NCBI RefSeq assembly: GCF_025698545.1
Contig: NC_068571.1
Coordinates: 47,711,733 to 47,775,732, forward strand
Direction of reading: 5' to 3'
Length of the DNA: 64,000 nucleotides
From: Gossypium raimondii
Taxonomy: Eukaryota; Streptophyta; Magnoliopsida; Malvales; Malvaceae
Below, piece after piece: positions 12,466-27,127 of the stretch. The notes beneath the pieces are model-generated. The model was given only the letters and a program-made list of their open reading frames with translations. It was not told where the DNA came from and made no database searches. Positions within the stretch are counted from its first letter, which is position 1. The number at the start of each line of letters is the position of its first letter. The translations under genes were made by a program, and so were the position numbers.

Positions 12466-14233
12466 GTATTAATTTGTCTTCCTAAAATTCCATGTATAAT
12501 AAAAAACTATTACAATATTAAATCCACTTAATTAACTAATTAATTGCAAATCTAAGTTCTAATAGAAAAATCATTTGAAACCCACTTAGATTTTGATTTA
12601 ATAATAAAGTTAATACACTGAGTTTTTTTTTTTTTTGATTTCTCAAGCATCCGATGTGAGCCCGATAATTAATCCTCTGCATTTTATAGATCTATTAAGA
12701 GGGTAGATGTGTTAGGAGAAACTCTTGTCATCACACCTAACTCTTATGATTAATATACCGAGAATTTTGATGTTCCAAGTTCAAGTTGTAAAATTGGGAG
12801 GTTTTTATTTTTATTTTTATGAATAATTAATTTGGTAGTTGCTTGGAAATTCCTTATTTAGTTGTTTGGTGATTTGTGGTTGAGTTAATAAATTCCTTTA
12901 AAGAAAAATAGTGGAAGACTTGAATAATGAAGAATAGACTCAAACTTCTGTGTATCTTCCCATTAAAGAGGTATAGGAAGTTTTGTTTGTAGAAATTCAG
13001 AGACTGGAAAAAGGAGAATATTGGTTCATGGAATTGAAAATCATCTTATGACTTTGTTGCTCTTAGATGGAAAATGTCATTACTTTTCTCCTAATGATTT
13101 AATTTTCTTATGTAATAATGAAAAACTTGTTTTTGATTAAAATGTTATTAATTATATATTATATAATAAAATATATATTTATATATTACAATATTATCAA
13201 TAGCTACATATTACTAATAATATGTTATTTTGCTTATAACGAAATACATGATATAACCACATATTTTAATCATATGGTAGATTATAATGAACAATATTAA
13301 TAATTGTATAATATTTATTATATATTATGTTTATTAAAATTTAATTATGGCTAAGTTTAGTTAAATTATTAATGACTCATATTATATTATATTAATTATG
13401 TCTATAACATTAATTTTGGTATCATTAATAATAAGCAATACATATAAATCACTATATAATATCTTAGTTATCAAGAAAACCCTTCTAATCCATTACTAGA
13501 CAGATTCAATGTCAAGCTCTTGTATAACACATTCAAATCTTGTTTTCAAGAAGATTCTACTTCAATCTCAATTCACAAAGCATGGACTTTACTTCTCTGC
13601 TCATCTTGAATGTCTTCGTAAGCCTATCGGCTTGCAACCAACTTTTTCAATCGAGCCACTTCTTTTGAGTTAATGTCTCCATTACCCGTGATCAGTTCAC
13701 AACTCAAAAAGTGAAGTTACGTTTGAGGCTGGAGTTTTTATCCTTTTGGTTCAATCTACTTGTATTTTGAATTTTTATATTATGTTTTACATTTATTTCG
13801 GTTTTATTTGTATAGTTTCGTTATATTTTAAATTTTTATTTATTTATTTATGCAGGTTTACACGAGTCTTGAGCACAAAATTATCCACGACGCATCCGTA
13901 GTTCTTTAACTATGAATTTAAATTTTATTTTAGACATTTTAGTGGATTCGGCACTCATCCGTAAATCTTGAAATAGACAATTTTGTGAAGGGAGAGATTT
14001 TGGTTTGCTTGTCTCTTGTTTTTTTCGCATCTTAGAGGAGATTCTTTGACGTCACATTTATTATTTATAGCAAAGGATTATTACATGGTGAAAATCAACG
14101 GCAAGTGTTGATAAGTATACAATAATCATGGAGTTGAGTACCGTATATGAGACAGAAAGTAGGAACACAGAAGTTGGGTTTGAAGACAAATCCAGCGCGT
14201 CAACCTTATTCTTCAACATTTGAGCGTAACAAG
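12466..14233. other. Intergenic sequence containing a diverged copy of the later tandem repeat
   Basis: No gene is recognised. The part at 12825-13165 is annotated separately. The rest is AT-rich with poly-T runs. A somewhat more complex patch at 13490-13720 is not readable as a known protein. Confidence 0.5.
12825..13165. repeat. Diverged third copy of a segment of the 3-kb tandem repeat
   Basis: Shared runs include AATTTGGTAGTTGCTTGG, AATAATGAAGAATAGACTC, AGGAAGTTTTGTTTGTAGAA and GAGACTGGAAAAAGGAGAA, in the same order and orientation as at 18283-18660 and 21300-21680. Many substitutions and indels separate it from those two copies, so it predates their duplication. The two sets lie on either side of the P450 gene. 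Confidence 0.8.
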
Positions 14234-16652
14234 TTACGCTTGCTTTTCCAAAACACTAATGGTGAAACCGTCGGCAAATCCCAGAGTGGGTGCACGAACC
14301 ACATCTCCCCCCTTCATCTTTTTCCACCTAACCCAAATTTACATACTCTTTTATTCTCAATTTTATCATCTATATATGTACATATAGTTTCTTGCATAAC
14401 ATATTAATCAACATACCTGTACTTGGTTACCAAAACGTGTAAAAATATAGCCATCAGGACCTTGCTGAAATCTGCTCCCGCACATGTTCTATTGCCTCCT
14501 CCAAATGCCATGAAATTCTTTGCCGTCGCATTGCTTCCAATGTTCTTAAAAAAAGTAGAGGTTAATTGCTTATCAAACTCTTTTTTTATTTACATAGTTA
14601 CACAAGTAATTAAATACCTTCCATCTTGAAGGGTTGAAGGTAAGAGGATCTTCGAAAGCCTCAGGATTAAGCTGTAGGGCTGCAGGCACAACCATGATAG
14701 CCCAACCTTGTGGTATTATGTACCCTGACAAATTAAGAAAAGTTAAATATGCACACACATATAGAGAGAGAGATTTAATTAAACAATGTATATATGGTTA
14801 GTACTGTGTGTTAAAGAGATGATTACCATTGACATGAATGTCTTTTATAACCCTTCTTAAGATCCCAGGAGCAACATTTGCTAATCTAAGCGACTCATTG
14901 ATGACCTTATAAGCACAAAATTACATGAATTAATTATTAAACCTCACCCTTGATTCTTGATATATAAAACCTAAATCAAGGGAACAAATTAAAATTAATT
15001 AAAGAATATATGTATACAAGAGAGATTCACTTTCGTATCTTTTTGTACAATTCAATTGTTGAATTTAATATTTCATTAATATAAATAATACATGTCAAAT
15101 TTGATGCAAATTTAAAATTTCTAACCATTTGTTTTATGAAAGAAATTCCAACGGTTGAATATATATTTTAGATCGATACAATAGAGACATTGGATCAATT
15201 AAAAAATTTATATGCATGATATATATAATTATATCGATAGATTTAACGGTGTAATCATTATTTTTACACTAGTGTAAATGGATTCCCCTCGGCTGTATAT
15301 AAAGGGAGAGAGAGATGATATATATGACTAACGTTACGAGTAAAATGCATGGATTTGTAATCCTCCCATTCAAGTCCATCTTCAAGTCCAGGATTACAAT
15401 CTCTTCTTTTCTTATTAAGAATCTGCTCATGCTCCTCCTTGTCAAGAGTTAAAAAAAATATAAATTTACAGATAATGAATTATACAAGTATATAAATATA
15501 TATATATATAAGAAAAAAGAAAGAAAATATTAAATAATTATATATCTTGATTACTTACGTACCGTAAGTTGTTGTAGTAAAGAAGGATGGTCGGATAAAT
15601 ACTTGATGGCTAAGGCAATAGTGGAAGAAACAGTCTCAAAGCTAGCGAGGAGGATTCCAAAGAGAACATGAGTAGCAAATTCCTTTGTCAAGAATGATTC
15701 TGTCCTCATGTCTTCCACAATTTGGTCGAGAAAATCTGTTTTGCTAATTCGTCCACCTTCTCCCGAATTCAGTCTCTCTTCCACTAATTTACTTATAACT
15801 TGTATTACTTTTTGCTGCCTCTGCAATGTTTATATATAGATATTTTAATTCCGTTTTAAGAATACTAGTTTTCTTGAATGGCTTACCTTTTTACATCTGT
15901 AGAAAGCAGTACCGGGGATGCGTAAAGGAAATGCCATCAGTCCCTCCAAGAAGTTGGATAAGTTTAGGGCTATAGTATCTGACGATTTTTCTGGTTCGTA
16001 ACTAAGCATGTGCTTCGCAGTAAATTCAAATATCATCTGCAAATAATTGTTTATTAGAAAACTAGTGATTCAATGAAGAGAAAAATTAGTAAATATATTG
16101 AAAGAGACTTACTGCAGCAGTTTGGTCTTTGAGTTGTACCTCCGGCTGCTTAGCCCACTCCTGCAATCTTTGATTTATGGCACATTCTAGTTGAGGCAGC
16201 AGCCTGTGTTTAAGAGTCTCAACACCAAAGTGATTCAAAACAAGGTGCCTCAGATATTTGTGTACATAGCCACTTGCTGCTGTAGTATCTTGGCGAAGCA
16301 ATTTTGCGAAGGAATCCATGTACCACATCTCAACAAGTTTACCTTCTTGTTGAAACAAGAAACTATTGAAATCGGGATCCGCCGATATCACAATTGATCG
16401 ACCTGCTACACTTGTTTTGAACAGTGGACCATACCTACTCATTCTTTCCTTAAAAAAAGGATGGATGTCTATGGACCTGGCTGTGACAAGTAAACTGAGG
16501 GTCTCTCCCAGAAGTGGGAGTCCCATCGAACCTGGAGGCAGTGTTCCTTTACATTTAGGGTTCCTCCACCTATAGATCCACCTAATACTTATTACAAGCA
16601 AAGGAAACAAGAAAAGCCAAACAGACCTCACCATCATCTCCATCAAACTCAA
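14234..16652 (-). CDS. Cytochrome P450, CYP87A-like (CYP85 clan)
   Basis: Eight exons can be joined with GT-AG junctions and consistent phase: 16652-16113, 16036-15887, 15820-15563, 15437-15333, 14905-14827, 14724-14618, 14544-14417 and 14327-14234. Together they give 486 aa. An N-terminal membrane anchor (about residues 9-25) is followed by a proline-rich hinge (LPPGSMGLPLLGETL). Further motifs are the I-helix ASFET (289-293), the K-helix ESLR (355-358), FNPSRW (407-412) and the haem loop FGGGNRTCAG (427-436), with Cys434 as the iron ligand. The ASFET I-helix, exon pattern and overall sequence suggest CYP87A. The protein should sit in the ER membrane and oxidise a sterol, triterpenoid or similar lipid; the substrate cannot be read from sequence. 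Exon 4 uses a GTTAGT donor, which is needed to keep phase and replaces the usual Phe-Gln before VINE with Arg-Asn. Apart from that the gene appears intact. Confidence 0.9.
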
Positions 16653-16725
16653 CTCAAGTAGCTAAAAATATTTAAGAGGAAAACAAAGATCCAAGAGTGC
16701 AGATTAGCAGCCACATTGGGTTATT

Positions 16726-16734
16726 CTATTTATA
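16726..16734 (-). promoter_or_regulatory. TATA box of the P450 gene
   Basis: TATAAATAG on the minus strand lies 74-82 bases upstream of the ATG at 16652. This leaves a leader of about 40-50 bases, normal for a plant gene. Confidence 0.55.
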
Positions 16735-16739
16735 TGCTT

Positions 16740-17364
16740 CAATGTTCTGAGCTTAGTCCTAATTTATGTAGACTAACTCCATTCTCATTATGCTGAATGG
16801 TGGACATCTTCATTTCCACACATTCTTCTCAAACTTAAAATATATATTTTATAAAGAGAAGAGAATATATGAAATTATGATTTCACTTCATTCATTTCCA
16901 ATGAGGAGAATGACAAATCAAATTTTTCCTTCTCAATTATAAATACATAAATAAGAGAATAAATTTGGAGATTATAAAATTAAATGGAAATCTATTTATG
17001 GAAATATTTACAATAATATTTTAGTTATTATAATTTTAAAATAATTGATAGTTTTAAGAATAAATATCCATTTCTAAAAAAACTTGAAGCTTTTGAAATT
17101 TTTTTACACTAATACTAATATCTAAAATGATTTTTATAATTAAAATTTGATGATTAAATTGATAAATTCATTAAACTAAAACTTTTTATTTTCTGTAATG
17201 TGAAAATATAATTTAATGTAAAATAAAAAGTTTCAACTTATGATTTTTTTTCGATACAAGAGTTTTAATCAACGCTTCATTTAAGTTTCAACTTTTGTAA
17301 CGTCTCTATCTTCTTGACAAAAATTATTTAAAATTACATTTTAAAGTTTTGATGTATTTTCAAT
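16740..17364. other. P450 upstream region and AT-rich spacer
   Basis: No gene is visible. The sequence is AT-rich and leads into the tandem duplication that begins at 17365. Confidence 0.5.
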
Positions 17365-20300
17365 TTGATATTTAATAAGTTAATTAAGGAAAAATTGTTT
17401 AGCAATTTTATTTCAATAAAAGAAGTAGTCATGATTTATAAATAAAATGGAAAAATCAATTATATAGATTTTAAAAAGGTTAATATGTTTACAATTGTAA
17501 TGTTTAAACTTTATTGTTAATATTTCGCATATATATTTCGTTAATACATTTGAAATATCTTATACAACAATAAAAAATATTATATTTTAGTTCTCCTCGA
17601 ATTTAAGATCCCTTTTCCATCTCTTTTTTTTGTTATGGGATTTTTTTCTCATTTTGATAGTCTTTATTTATATTTATACACATTTCACTCCATTGCGATG
17701 CATGGATTTAATTTATATCTAATAATTAATATATATGCATATGCTCAAATATAGCGAAATTATTTTATGAACCCTTCCCAAGATATCATTCATGGTCTTT
17801 TTGTAATTATTTAATGACATTTCAATAATTTTTTTCATATCATTAAAACATAATTTTGGTAATTATTTTATCCTTGAACCCCAAATCTAGAATCCTGAAC
17901 CCTAATCCTAAACTCGAATTCCGAAACTTGAACCTTGAATCCTAAACTGATTCGGGATTTGGGTTTAGGATTCAATGTAAAAATGACCAAAATTATGTAT
18001 CAATTACATGGAAAAAATTGTTGAAATATTATTAAATAATTGAAAAGAGACCATGGATGATGTAGTGAGAAGAGTCCATAAAATAATTTCTCAGTATAAA
18101 TGTAATTATGAAAATAAGGAAAAAAAAAGGGAAAATTTCCTGGTTATATAGTTATATATACATTTTTTCTTCTTCTAGTTTTAATTTAATGAAAAGTGGT
18201 AAAGTGGCTTTGCATGCTTGCCTACTGAAATTTAATTTAATTAAGTGCTTTAATGAAAGTTGCTACTAAAATTTGGATGTAGTCATTAATTTGGTAGTTG
18301 CTTGGAAACTCCTTATTTAGCTGTTTGGTGACTTGTAGTTGAATCAACAAATTCCTTAGAAAAACAAAATAGTGGATGACTTTTGAATAATGAAGAATAG
18401 ACTCCAACTTCTTCATGTATAGGAAGTTTTGTTTGTAGAAATTGAGAGACTGGAAAAAGGAGAAAATGCAAAGGAAGAAAGAAGGTTGGTTCATGAAATG
18501 GAGGGAGTGGAAAAGCTTTCCAAAATCATCTTATGACTTTCTTACTCTTACATGCCAAATCTCATTACTTTTCTCCTAATAATTTAATTTTCATATGTAA
18601 TAATGAAAAAAATTTGGTTTACCAAAAATTATTTTTGATTAATTATATATTATAACTAGTTTTTTTATCCGTGTGATGTATGGGAAAATCGTTGTTTTAA
18701 AATCTTTGAATTTTATATAATTATAAATATTAATTTGTAATAGATTGTAAAGTTTAAAACATGTATCGCATAAGCTGATTGAGTCTTACCTCAGTTGCCA
18801 TCGGTATTATTGCCAATGTAAGAGAATGTGGGTTCGAGTGTGTTGAGACGCATTATCCTTCCTATTCAAGGGTTGAGACAAAATTGAAATGAGGTAAATT
18901 GCTAAAGGGTTTATAAAGGTAATAATCCATTTTAATCCTAAGCTACCTATTATATAAAACTATCCAATATCATATAATAATAATTAAACATTTTAAATAA
19001 TAATGAAAATCATACTCTCTTTTTGTGATGGAAAGTGATAATAACTATTACATTATTAATAAATAAATAAATTCATACATTATAGATTAGGTTGCCAATA
19101 TAGTGATATAATCTTTTTATATATGCATATATATTATTAATCTCACACATTTATTTTTTATTAATTATAAAACAAAATCTTATTTATATATAAAATATAT
19201 ATTTATTTAATAAAAAATTTAGATTTTATTATTTTTAATTTTTCCAATTATATTATTTATAACTTTATTAATTAGAAATTATTAATATATTATGTTATAT
19301 TTAAGTAGTTATTTTAAAAGATATGAAGAAATTAATTAATATTACTTTTATTATTATCACATAATAATACTAATAAATTATTATTTTAATATCAATTTAG
19401 TAATATAATCAATCATTCTCGCCAATTCAAAAAAGTTAAACTCATGTTTTATATATAAATATATAGATGATACTCGACTCCAAAATGATTTCTTTCCCAA
19501 CCCACCCCGAAATTTTAAGTAGTGTTTTATAGTATATTAAATTTTACAAAACTAAACCAAATATGTATTATAAAATATTAAAAATTATGAAACTGTAATT
19601 AGATATGTAAAAAAGAAAAGTATAAAATTAAAAAGTTTAAATAAAAAATTGAAAAAAGAGAGCAATTTTAATAAATATGTCTCAAATCCATCTAATCCAA
19701 CTTCGAAAATTGAAACCTGATGGTTCAATTTTCTTTACAAGGGCTTCTTTTTCTACTGAACATCAATGCGAAACATGCATACAGTGTTAACAAAAATGAA
19801 GAATCCAGAGACCCAACATAATCATTTTTAGAAGAATTAAGGCAGAACTGCACGTTAAATATGATTTGGACCAAAGTCATATGGCGTGGCAGCAAGATAT
19901 TGTTTTAGCTGAGCTAAAAATGAGTTAAAAGGGCTTGTTTTTAAAACAAGTTACTATAGAAGTGTCATCAAATTCAAGGTAGCTTTTCTTTTTCCCATAA
20001 ACAATACCAACACAACTGCATTCATAAATCAGTAAGCACCAAAGCATAAATTCCCCAGTAGATCACCTGAGTTCCACGCGTTTTCCGCACCATCCACCGT
20101 ACGATATCGGACCCATGATTTTAGGTTAGCTGCAGAAAAGCAACAAAACTTTAGACAATGGCCGGCAAGAAACCGAGATCAATGAACAGCTCATAGTGAC
20201 AACAGCTACAATACCAAGAGGCTTATAAGTGACAACAGCTGCAAAACGTACTCCTGAAAACCCGGACTTGGCATTTTCCGGTACCAAAAGGAAAATATTC

Positions 20301-20407
20301 CTTAAACACTAGCACGATCCACTTCACTATCACAGGTAGATAGCGACAATATATCAACAATTCAAACCGAATCACTATACTGAAATGAATAAAACAACCA
20401 AAGCTAG
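17365..20407. repeat. 3-kb direct tandem duplication, copy 1
   Basis: This 3043-bp unit starts TTGATATTTAATAAG and ends ACCAAAGCTAG. It is followed immediately by copy 2, which has the same start and end. The right end (about 20040-20407) duplicates the terminal exon of the neighbouring NF-YC gene: a minus-strand acceptor ending CTGCAG at 20130, then C and TAA at 20126-20129. The rest is AT-rich non-coding DNA. An 85-aa minus-strand frame (18494-18237) is repeated at 21517-21260 but resembles no protein. Confidence 0.95.
18785..18850 (+). repeat. Possible tRNA-derived (SINE-like) fragment
   Basis: TTACCTCAGTTGCCATCGG resembles a tRNA A box, and GTGGGTTCGAGTG about 30 bases later resembles a B box. 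The same occurs in copy 2 near 21804-21868. There is no poly-A tail or clear body, so this is weak. Confidence 0.3.
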
Positions 20408-23400
20408 TTGATATTTAATAAGTTAATTAAGGAAAAATTGTTTAGCAATTTTATTTCAATAAAAGAAGTAGTCATGATTTATAAATAAAATGGAAAAATC
20501 AATTATATAGATTTTAAAAAGGTTAATATGTTTACAATTGTAATGTTTAAACTTTATTGTTAATATTTCGCATATATATTTCGTTAATACATTTCTTATA
20601 CAACAATAAAAAATATTATATTTTAGTTCTCCTCGAATTTAAGATCCTTTTCCATCTCTTTTTTTGTTATGGGATTTTTTTCTCATTTTGATAGTCTTTA
20701 TTTATATTTATACATTTCACTCCATTGCGATGCATGGATTTAATTTATATCTAATAATTAATATATATGCATATGCTCAAATATAGCGAAATTATTTTAT
20801 GAACCCTTCCAAGATATCATTCATGGTCTTTTGTAATTATTTAATGACATTTCAATAATTTTTTCATATCATTAAAACATAATTTTGGTAATTATTTTAT
20901 CCTTGAACCCCAAATCTAGAATCCGAACCCTAATCCTAAACTCAATTCGAAACTTGAACCTTGAATCCTAAAGCGATTCGGGATTTGGGTTTAGGATTCA
21001 ATGTAAAATGACCAAAATTATGTATCAATTACATGGAAAAATTGTTGAAATATTATTAAATAATTGAAAAGAGACCATGGATGATGTAGTGAGAAGAGTC
21101 CATAAAATAATTTCTCAAGATAAATGTAATTATGAAAATAAGGAAAAAAAAGGAAAATTTCCTGGTTATATAGTTATATATACATTTTTTTCTTCTTCTA
21201 GTTTTAATTTAATGAAAAGTGGTAAAGTGGCTTTGCATGCTTGCCTACTGAAATTTAATTTAATTAAGTGCTTTAATGAAAGTTGCTACTAAAATTTGGA
21301 TGTAGTCATTAATTTGGTAGTTGCTTGGAAACTCCTTATTTAGCTGTTTGGTGACTTGTAGTTGAATCAACAAATTCCTTAGAAAAACAAAATAGTGGAT
21401 GACTTTTGAATAATGAAGAATAGACTCCAACTTCTTCATGTATAGGAAGTTTTGTTTGTAGAAATTGAGAGACTGGAAAAAGGAGAAAATGCAAAGGAAG
21501 AAAGAAGGTTGGTTCATGAAATGGAGGGAGTGGAAAAGCTTTCCAAAATCATCTTATGACTTTCTTACTCTTACATGCCAAATCTCATTACTTTTCTCCT
21601 AATAATTTAATTTTCATATGTAATAATGAAAAAATTTGGTTTACCAAAAATTATTTTGATTAATTATATATTATAACTAGTTTTTTATCCGTGTGATGTA
21701 TGGGAAAATCGTTGTTTTAAAATCTTTGAATTTTATATAATTATAAATATTAATTTGTAATAGATTGTAAAGTTTAAAACATGTATCGCATAAGTGATTG
21801 AGTCTTACCTCATTGCCATCAGTATTATTGCCAATGTAAGAGAATGTGGGTTCGAGTGTGTTGAGACGCATTATCCTTCCTATTCAAGGGTTGAGACAAA
21901 ATTGAAATGAGGTAAATTGCTAAAGGGTTTATAAAGGTAATAATCCATTTTAATCCTAAGCTACCTATTATATAAAACTATCCAATATCATATAATAATA
22001 ATTAAACATTTTAAATAATAATGAAAATCATACTCTCTTTTTGTGATGGAAAGTGATAATAACTATTACATTATTAATAAATAAATAAATTCATACATTA
22101 TAGATTAGGTTGCCAATATAGTGATATAATCTTTTTATATATGCATATATATTATTAATCTCACACATTTATTTTTATTAATTATAAAACAAAATCTTAT
22201 TTATATATAAAATATATATTTATTTAATAAAAAATTTAGATTTTATTATTTTTAATTTTTCCAATTATATTATTTATAACTTTATTAATTAGAAATTATT
22301 AATATATTATGTTATATTTAAGTAGTTATTTTAAAAGATATGAAGAAATTAATTAATATTACTTTTATTATTATCACATAATAATACTAATAAATTATTA
22401 TTTTAATATCAATTTAGTAATATAATCAATCATTCTCGCCAATTCAAAAAAGTTAAACTCATGTTTTATATATAAATATATAGATGATACTCGACTCCAA
22501 AATGATTTCTTTCCCAACCCACCCCGAAATTTTAAGTAGTGTTTTATAGTATATTAAATTTTACAAAACTAAACCAAATATGTATTATAAAATATTAAAA
22601 ATTATGAAACTGTAATTAGATATGTAAAAAAGAAAAGTATAAAATTAAAAAGTTTAAATAAAAAAATTGAAAAAAAGAGAGCAATTTTAATAAATATGTC
22701 TCAAATCCATCTAACCCAACTTCGAAAATTGAAACCTGATGGTTCAATTTTCTTTACAAGGGCTTCTTTTTCTACTGAACATCAATGCGAAACATGCATA
22801 CAGTGTTAACAAAAATGAAGAATCCAGAGACCCAACATAATCATTTTTAGAAGAATTAAGGCAGAACTGCACGTTAAATATGATTTGGACCAAAGTCATA
22901 TGGCGTGGCAGCAAGATATTGTTTTAGCTGAGCTAAAATGAGTTAAAAGGGCTTGTTTTAAAACAAGTTACTATAGAAGTGTCATCAAATTCAAGGTAGC
23001 TTTTCTTTTCCCATAAACAATACCAACACAACTGCATTCATAAATCAGTAAGCACCAAAGCATAAATTCCCCAGTAGATCACCTGAGTTCCACGCGTTTT
23101 CCGCACCATCCACCGTACGATATCGGACCCATGATTTTAGGTTAGCTGCAGAAAAGCAACAAAACTTTAGACAATGGCCGGCAAGAAACCGAGATCAATG
23201 AACAGCTCATAGTGACAACAGCTACAATACCAAGAGGCTTATAAGTGACAACAGCTGCAAAACGTACTCCTGAAAACCCGGACTTGGCATTTTCCGGTAC
23301 CAAAAGGAAAATATTCCTTAAACACTAGCACGATCCACTTCACTATCACAGGTAGATAGCGACAATATATCAACAATTCAAACCGAATCACTATACTGAA

Positions 23401-23423
23401 ATGAATAAAACAACCAAAGCTAG
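20408..23423. repeat. 3-kb direct tandem duplication, copy 2
   Basis: This 3016-bp unit is nearly identical to copy 1 throughout. The differences I could see are mostly one-base length changes in short homopolymers, plus a 7-bp indel (copy 1 has GAAATAT after CATTT near 17551). The right end carries the terminal exon used in the NF-YC gene model (stop at 23142-23144). The right flank continues into the NF-YC intron. Confidence 0.95.
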
Positions 23424-26400
23424 GAAAAAGATGAATGCATATTAGCTGGTCTTAGAACATGCCCTTGTTAAAATGCACTATAGTGGTCTTTCAGAAAAGT
23501 TTGCATGGATGAAAATGAACAATTCAAGATTCTCGTCTTTCGTTCGAGGTTTTAAGTAAAATCATGCTTAGACGGTGTTTGAATCTGCAAAATCCTATTG
23601 CATATGATCAAAAGGAAGTCTAGAATGCAATGCAAAAATGAAACTTTAACAAAAATGCAAGTGCTTAGGATGCAAAAATGTCAAAAATAAGGGTAAATTG
23701 CACTAGTAGTCACTCAACTATTAGTAAATTACTTTTTTGATCACCTAACTATAAAAAGTTACAAAATAGTCACCTAACTACTAGTAAAATGTCTTTTTTG
23801 GTCACCCAACTATGAAAAGTTACAAAATGATATCTAACTATTTAATTTTGTCTTTTTTTGTTACCAGCTGTTAATAGTTGTAGCTTTTAAAGTTGGCATA
23901 ATAGCAATTTTAACTCTCAACATTTATATATTATGTCAATTTAGTCTTGATTCTAAAAATCTAACCTCGACATTTACACAAAATAATAATTTGGCCTTTT
24001 TGCAATTTTTCTTTTCTTTGACCCTTTCACATAGCTAAAAAACAAAATTATCGGCTAAAAAATGAAAACACCAAAAATCTAGGATAATAATTTTCATCTT
24101 TTCTCATTCTTTTAAAATTAACTTTAAATGTCACAAAGAAAAGCAAAATTGCAATAAAATAAAAACAAAAAATCAAATTACACAATGTGTAAATGTTGAG
24201 GTTAATTTTTTAAAATCAATACCAAATTGACATAATTTATAAATGTTTATTATGCCAATTTTAGAAGCTGATACCATTAGCTAGCAGATAACCAAAAAAA
24301 CAAAATTATATAGTTTGGTGACCATTTTGTAACTTTTCATAGTTGTGTGATCAAAAAGGGTTTATTAATAGTTAAGTGATCATTTTATGACTTTTCATAG
24401 TTGAGTAACTAAAAACGAAATTTATTAATAGTTGAGTGACTACTAGTATAGTTTATCTTAAAAATAAACCAAACCAATGAAATCATTAACTAGACATCCT
24501 GGTTGCTACATGGATAAGGGGAAAGATTATATGTTTACTTCAAAGGAAGCAACTATGTTACTCGAAGTCGGGTGTAAACTTTGGACATGAATATGTGTTT
24601 TATATGAGTTTGGCCACACTCAAGCAAAATGAAGAGTCGAGCCAAACACAAGTGACGATTCGGAAGAAACGGAATGGGAAAATAACCGGATAAGGAACCA
24701 ACCAGCAATTCAAGGACTACATGCATACCAGCCCATTTTCATTAGGAACTAAATGACTGAAAATGGAAAATATGATGCTGGTTCCAAGCCATAACACAAG
24801 TGACACATGACGTGCCACATGCATCTTATGTTGATATACAGAGACCAGTTTTTACAAGTAGAATTAAGTAAAACTTTTAACAGACAGACTAGCTTACTCT
24901 TCAATCTAATGTACAGGGACTACTTAGCCCATTTTTTAGTCGAGGAGGCAAAATACAATCCGACTCCTAATACAATACCTCCATGGTACTTTTACTCATT
25001 ACCATCACTACATAACTATCATATCACTTAAAGGCTAAGTTCAATAAGGTGGGAAAAAAATGCAGTTTTACATTTAAATCTAGCAAATTCAATCAATAAA
25101 AATGGAACCTTCATACCATAACCATCAAACAAAATGCAAATATGGCATTAAACCAGTACTTGGAATGGGGAAATGGTTTAGAAAAGACTAAAAGGGAACC
25201 AGCTCCTTTGACTAAAGTTCAAAGCATTGGTATCTAATTCAACACTATTCAAGCAAAATGTTCCTTATCCTACAATATTGCAAGAGTTTAAGAAAAATAA
25301 CATAATTTTGAATGGAATCAATGGCTAAAAAAGGAAAGCAAAACTTTAATCAATAAACAAACCCAGAAATTGAAAATTCTTAAAGATGATAATAGAGTTT
25401 AAGGGGAAAAAAAACTAAATTTTGAGTGGAACCAATGACTAAAAGGGCAAAAACAACCAAAATTTTAATTAAAAAATAAACCCAGAAATTGAAAGGTTAA
25501 AATATGCTATTAGTCCCTGTATTTTGATAAAATTGAAATGTAGTCCAAATTAAGCTTCTACTTTACTTTTTATTTACAAGTCTCAATCCAATCATATACT
25601 TGTTAATATTTTTTGTTAAAATTTGTTAACTTGACGTATTAGTTATACTGCTTTATTCATCGTGTTAAATTAACAATTTTTTTATTAAAATAATTATAAT
25701 AATTGAATTAAGATTTTTAAATTGAAAAAAGTAGGAGGATTGAAATTTTAATAAGTGACTAAATAAACTATAGGACTAACAACATATTTTACCAAATTGA
25801 AAATTCTCAAAATTAAGGGAAAAAAGAACATACCCTTGACCGTCAAGATTCCCTTGACCACCGGTAACTCCACTTCCATACGAGCCATCATCAGTTCCCG
25901 CCGTCTGCCAAACACTCTGCCAAGCCTGAGAAGGTGGCTGACCGTAAATACCTCCGGTGGGATCGACGGCAGGCCGGCCAATCATCATCCCACCAGGACC
26001 ACCAGCAGCAGGTTGACCCATAGGGGGATAAAAGTAAGGTACCCCACTGGCGGTAGCCCCAACCATCGGAGCCAAACCAGTTTCATCCTTGATCTCATCC
26101 CTAGGCACAATATCTACCAAGAAATCGAAAATGTCGGTCCTCGTAATAGCCGCAGCGATGTCGTTTTTCTGAAGTGTCCGTCGCTTGTTTTCCTCGGCGT
26201 GAAGCCAAGAACGGATAGTGAGTTCCAAAATGAAAAGCTCACAAGCTTTGGCGAAGAGAATGGGAGCCTCGGCGGAGATCATACGGACGTCTTCGTCGGC
26301 TTTCATTATCTTCTTAATGCGAGCTAATGGGAGTTGGTGGTTCTTAAAATCGTTAACTTGCTCGATTTCTTGGCGTTGGTATGACCAAAACATTTGGAGC

Positions 26401-26531
26401 TGTTGCTGTTGTTGTTGAAGGAGGTGGTGGAAAGGAGGCGCGGTTGCTGTGGCGGATGAAGGAGGGGTAATGGCGGATGTGGGAGGCTGAGGTGGGTATG
26501 GGGTGGATTGAGTTTGCTGGTTACTGTCCAT
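23142..26531 (-). CDS. NF-YC: Nuclear transcription factor Y subunit C (NF-YC1/4 type)
   Basis: Exon 1 (26531-25834) encodes 232 residues plus two bases (GG). The intron begins GTATGT at 25833. A fitting acceptor, CTGCAG, lies at 23146. The terminal exon adds C, completing Gly233, then TAA (23144-23142). The predicted end is NLDGQG, identical to the end I recall for Arabidopsis NF-YC1 and NF-YC4. A Q-rich segment (39-44) precedes the histone-fold domain at about 60-150 ([57 protein letters not shown]). A Gly/Pro-rich tail follows. The protein pairs with NF-YB and NF-YA to bind CCAAT boxes in the nucleus, and also with CONSTANS-like factors. The intron holds two MITEs and a foldback half-copy. 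A second copy of the terminal exon lies in the other tandem repeat (acceptor at 20130). Confidence 0.93.
23691..24458. mobile_element. Mutator-like MITE in the NF-YC intron
   Basis: Long terminal inverted repeats share CTAGTAGTCACTCAACTATT and continue with repeated GTTACAAAATG..TAACTAT blocks for over 100 bp. The 9-bp flanks CAAAAATAA (23682-23690) and TAAAAATAA (24459-24467) differ at one base, the duplication length typical of Mutator-like elements. There is no transposase. Confidence 0.75.
24800..24996. mobile_element. Half copy of foldback MITE family A
   Basis: This matches the right half of the element at 8748-9116: GACGTGCCACATG at the centre, then AATCTAATGTACAGGGA, AATCCGACTCCTAATAC and an end in TACTTTTAC. 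The left half is absent. It lies in the NF-YC intron. Confidence 0.65.
25495..25793. mobile_element. MITE with perfect 9-bp target duplication (family B)
   Basis: The ends are GGTTAAAATATG and CATATTTTACC, with matching inner repeats (CTATTAGTCCCTGTA / TATAGGACTAACAA). AAATTGAAA flanks both sides (25486-25494 and 25794-25802). The 299-bp element ends 40 bp from the NF-YC exon 1 splice donor. A second family member is at 40562-40912. Confidence 0.85.
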
Positions 26532-26649
26532 TGGCTGGTGAACAAATGGCGGGAGATGGGGATGTGGCGGTGGTGATCGTGGTGGTGGTGGCGGCGGTGG
26601 ATATTTTTAAGGGTCAGATATGGATGGGATAAGGTACAGCGGCCATTGC

Positions 26650-27127
26650 ATTTTGCGCTGGCTTTGTTTATTATTATTATTTTCCAAAATAAAAATAAAA
26701 ATATTATTTATGAATTATTACTTATCTGTATAAAAAAAAATCTTATTTATCTAAATTTGGTACCACCATCAACCCAACAACAGTCGATAATTCTTTAAAA
26801 ATATATTTTGAAATAAATTTAGTAAAAACTAAAACAAAAATCAATTTAGTCAATATTATTTTGGGTGGAATTTTAATGAATTAATTAATAGTTTGAAGAA
26901 GTTGGTCCAACTTATTTCTCTACGAATTAAGATTTAAATAAACAAATTCACAATTCATTTTATTAATAAAATTACTTATTTACCAAATCTTTAATAATTA
27001 AATATCCCTAATTAATTAATTATATATCATTGTCAACTTTATAGATTTGGTTTTGACTCACAATGCCATGTAAGCATTAGGATTCTTATTAATTGCTCGA
27101 TGCCACCTCATCATCAATTAACCTCAT
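26650..27127. other. Upstream region of NF-YC, AT-rich
   Basis: After the GC-rich leader (26532-26610, with many GGTGGTGG repeats on the plus strand) the sequence turns AT-rich. I see no gene and no secure core promoter. Confidence 0.4.

Follow-up and report, generated by a model that had tools for sequence, protein, structure and literature searches.

Does the NF-YC gene of Gossypium raimondii end in one terminal exon, or can it choose between two? The question is raised by a 64-kb stretch of genome assembly (64,000 nucleotides, hereafter the window) that lies 47.7 Mb along a 53.5-Mb sequence, one of 281 in an assembly totaling 750.8 Mb. There, a 3-kb unit stands twice in direct succession beyond NF-YC exon 1, and an earlier note on this DNA proposed that exon 1 can be joined to a terminal exon in either copy. 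We examined what the two units share, how they differ, and what kind of event would leave such differences.

NF-YC and its two candidate terminal exons

NF-YC exon 1 holds the whole coding sequence except for the stop codon and the final base of the last codon (Table 1). The protein that it encodes matches the Pfam families CBFD_NFYB_HMF (PF00808; E = 1.7e-16) and Histone (E = 3.5e-18), and its best PDB match is 7c9o_C, nuclear transcription factor Y subunit C-2 (E = 2.7e-52). On the minus strand, each unit presents the same splice acceptor followed by C and TAA, and the two sequences are identical, as the earlier note had stated. Its other structural predictions were borne out as well: spliced translation through either acceptor gives the same 233-amino-acid NF-YC protein, ending in GNLDGQG and the stop, and the predicted introns of about 2.7 and 5.7 kb measure 2688 nt with the proximal (unit 2) acceptor and 5704 nt with the distal (unit 1) acceptor. 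The claim that both units carry the same 3' UTR stands as far as its presence goes, but the copies are not quite identical, having one-base length differences at 19916, 19938, and 19989, all within ~220 nt after the acceptor. Further differences between the units at 19643, 19652, and 19696 would also fall in the 3' UTR if it extends that far. The first 520 nt after the acceptor (517 in unit 2) contain no AATAAA and a single ATTAAA, ~455 nt past the acceptor.

Table 1. Coordinates of the repeat units and of the NF-YC features (positions in the window; exon and intron limits predicted from splice signals)
Feature	Position	Strand	Description
Unit 1	17365-20407	no strand	3043-nt copy on the far side from exon 1; its terminal exon would be an orphan in a real duplication
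Unit 2	20408-23423	no strand	3016-nt copy on the exon 1 side; the shorter one in 22 of 25 length differences
Unit junction	20407..20408	no strand	no N, no filler, no shared breakpoint base; suspected contig join
NF-YC exon 1	25834..26531	minus	ATG at 26531 to putative donor CAAGG/GTATGT
NF-YC intron, proximal (unit 2) acceptor	23146..25833	minus	2688 nt, predicted
Proximal terminal exon start	23142..23145	minus	C at 23145, TAA at 23144-23142, after acceptor TTTTCTGCAG
Distal terminal exon start	20126..20129	minus	C at 20129, TAA at 20128-20126, after identical acceptor TTTTCTGCAG

The letters thus hold what an alternative last exon calls for, namely, two acceptors (at 23145 and 20129), each with a stop and a 3' UTR behind it. 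Even if both units were real, an even use of the two acceptors would be unlikely, because unit 2 restores the intron end, the acceptor, the stop, and the 3' region ahead of unit 1; the proximal exon would be the one expected in transcripts.

The surroundings of the units hold two further features. Inside the predicted NF-YC intron lies an imperfect inverted repeat (23694-24455) that contains tandem repeats of 58-61 nt, and a minus-strand open reading frame for the N-terminal part of a cytochrome P450 (16086-16661) has upstream sequence that runs into unit 1. A known RNA gene was considered for the region and rejected: ARAGORN, run with bacterial settings, reported no tRNA in 15000-27000, and no Rfam family matched at its gathering score in 16000-27000.

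The tandem units and their junction

The two units form a direct, head-to-tail tandem in which 3007 of 3046 alignment columns are identical, and the 3-kb tandem repeat described in the earlier note is confirmed in the assembly. Such a repeat is far beyond chance. A repeat scan of the 64 kb (seed 16, minimum length 120) found no further tandem pair and one other direct repeat family, at 13037, which is dispersed and diverged. When we searched the 750.8-Mb assembly with a single 316-nt query from around the acceptor, the best candidates comprised two matches, units 1 and 2 themselves, and included neither a third nor an unduplicated copy elsewhere.

Zero bases separate the units, and the window is free of N. 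Comparison of the flanks at the unit breakpoints found no base common to either side, and for lack of shared sequence we rejected an origin by recombination between flanking repeats. A gapless sequence with a clean junction is what would be expected if the plant had in fact undergone a tandem duplication very recently, by non-homologous joining of breaks. The identity of the acceptor and the stop in the two terminal exons, as well as the exact match to unit 1 over the initial 186 bases of unit 2, agrees with such an event. We consider this history possible, at somewhat better than one chance in four. It would predict that the proximal, unit 2 acceptor and its 3' end are mainly used, giving an ordinary transcript, while unit 1 would keep a dormant orphan exon.

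Kind and sidedness of the differences between the units

The units differ at 31 places, 25 of them indels and 6 substitutions. Unit 1 is the longer copy at 22 of the 25 length differences and unit 2 at 3 (P = 1.6e-4 against symmetry). One-base differences account for 22 of the 25, and 15 of these 22 fall in homopolymers of 4 or more (length taken from the longer copy), which make up 16% of unit 1. Four of the six substitutions form two adjacent pairs, and either pair might instead represent one insertion and one deletion.

The kind of difference is unlike that seen elsewhere in the window. Six repeat pairs within it show 122 substitutions to 15 gaps, against 6 to 25 for the units (Fisher P = 4e-14), a comparison of kind and not of age, as these pairs are older and have diverged far beyond the units; three of them, all from one element (23694-24455), overlap, and one is an inverted repeat inside unit 1. 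As a weak control, six nearby coding open reading frames, selected because they are open, read through 107 homopolymers of 4 or more; unit 1 contains 110 such homopolymers, and 15 one-base differences touch these.

The spectrum and the sidedness of the differences bear on two further readings. According to the first, the duplication is real and older, its copies have since mutated, and both terminal exons serve as alternative last exons, a view with which the two intact acceptors and the same stop behind each would agree. Mutation over time should, however, have left a spectrum like that of the older repeats, and should not have been one-sided; in addition, a proximal copy met first with the same signals would presumably leave the distal copy rarely reached. 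The second reading, a heterotype false duplication, holds that two alleles of a heterozygous plant were set end to end. It would produce the same tandem geometry, and alleles are the main source of false duplications, sequencing errors being a minor one (PMC9516828). Alleles should nonetheless differ mostly by substitutions, with changes on both sides, in place of the 25 indels to 6 substitutions and the strong lean toward a shorter unit 2 observed here. We rejected both readings on the difference spectrum and the sidedness, and regard the older duplication and the joined alleles as equally and highly improbable.

The differences are also unevenly placed. After merging of adjacent substitutions there are 29 events, 16 of which lie within 17551-18163 of unit 1 (20594-21185 of unit 2, the part of that unit near the junction), and none beyond 19989 in unit 1. 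Clustering as dense in a 620-base window was reached by 14 and 19 of 10,000 random placements in two runs, with the window size having been picked after the data were seen; the result varies with that size, since the observed maxima were reached in 706 of 10,000 placements for 300 bases and in 1578 of 10,000 for 1000 bases. The clustering near the junction is therefore only suggestive.

Diverged relatives of parts of the unit served as outgroups to indicate which unit departs from the older state. A short dispersed element of ~100 bases lies at 18770-18880 (21790-21900 in unit 2); it may be SINE-like. The matches listed for it number 41, the units supplying 2 and the others being 80-86% identical (40 scored of 1024 first-look candidates), and they are spread over all of the sequences C1-C13, plus C184. 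With the units left out, all 28 fetched copies have the unit 1 length at site 18794, and 26 of 28 agree with unit 1 in the base at site 18803. At site 18775, all 6 covering copies have the unit 1 length (22 of the 28 do not cover it). Scored as a whole, 26 of 28 copies align better with unit 1, 1 is a tie, and 1 aligns better with unit 2, counts that carry a slight bias from the use of unit 1 as the query that retrieved them.

A second comparison is internal to the unit. At 17749-18097 lies an inverted repeat, perhaps a MITE-like element, whose arms of 119 nt are 81% complementary and 111 nt apart. Both arms in unit 2 are one base short, in homopolymers that correspond to each other. The other arm gives the unit 1 length as the older one at 17777 and 17798; the arms give no direction at 17829 and 18012, where the two arms of a unit change together, or at 17979, and they split on 18094-18095. 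On these comparisons, the change is placed in unit 2 at the four clearly resolved length sites (17777, 17798, 18775, and 18794). At other sites, a small preference for unit 2 comes from the diverged copy at 13037, which aligns with a score of 158 to unit 2 versus 153 to unit 1 and sides with unit 2 in its gaps at 18606, 18632, and 18660, where the alignment is poor.

Origin of the second unit

The repeat is present in the assembly, and its differences are mostly indels that shorten one copy. An imbalance of 22 to 3, mostly in homopolymers, suggests that the consensus of one copy rests on few reads. Mutation and context-dependent sequencing bias should treat identical neighbors alike, and errors at the thin end of a contig would not; for this reason, we favor a false duplication over mutation. 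Specifically, the tandem is probably a homotype false duplication in the assembly, in which case NF-YC would have one terminal exon. Two contigs covering the same 3 kb, or else two such assembly-graph branches, would have been set end to end and left unmerged, the left contig ending at 20407 and the right one beginning at 20408. If the start of the right-hand contig rested on few reads, its consensus would have lost bases, mostly in homopolymers. The true gene would then consist of exon 1, a single ~2.7-kb intron, and one terminal exon carrying C, TAA, and the 3' UTR. Several elements of this account are inferred: a contig boundary at the junction, thin coverage beside it, the method of sequencing, and the presence of only one unit in the plant.

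As described in PMC8081667, homotype false duplications sit at contig boundaries and appear as tandem sequence of differing consensus quality, with a gap. A gap usually separates false duplications, and wrong gap filling sometimes joins them (PMC9516828).

Several observations speak against this explanation: the junction has no N, unit 2 is exact over its initial 186 bases, which adjoin the suspected contig end, three length differences run the opposite way, with unit 2 the longer copy, and the diverged copy at 13037 leans to unit 2. That sequencing errors are a minor source of false duplications (PMC9516828) also counts against it. Slippage in homopolymers is, moreover, a real mutational process as well. 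The very recent duplication introduced above can accommodate these points, provided that consensus errors were left unevenly in its copies. Equal coverage should nevertheless spread errors and mutations evenly over both units, yet unit 2 is the shorter one in 22 of the 25 cases; the substitutions are few, though a very recent event would give that too. A spare NF-YC terminal exon, together with a doubling of the sequence that lies upstream of the P450 gene, might be confined to this accession and is the less probable outcome, with a chance that we would put well short of even. Returning to the false duplication, the second terminal exon of NF-YC is probably not real, and the claim that the plant truly has two such exons went unsupported, given 25 indels to 6 substitutions and their one-sidedness.

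Should the tandem be an artifact, a spurious alternative last exon would enter the annotation of this assembly, and the spacing between NF-YC and the P450 gene would be overstated by 3 kb. A real tandem would amount to a minor structural variant of recent origin and modest interest; its UTR copies could be distinguished only where they differ, for example at 19916, 19938, and 19989, and those differences may themselves be errors. The sidedness of length differences between adjacent copies offers a cheap, read-free hint of assembly errors.

How does this locus compare with known systems? Like those of plant NF-YC genes, its protein has the NF-YC histone-fold core, and we saw nothing unusual in it; its GNLDGQG end resembles that of Arabidopsis NF-YC4. 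With alternative last exons, the locus shares two acceptors with a stop and a 3' UTR behind each; it differs in that the exons are near-identical copies, so that neither the protein nor the UTR content would differ, and use of the distal exon is putative. With homotype false duplications, it shares adjacent, near-identical units; one of them may also carry errors of a sequencing type. Long reads are usually longer than 3 kb, which sets this case apart from the usual homotype false duplication. The units also lack a gap between them, a feature that is usual in false duplications but not obligatory (PMC9516828).
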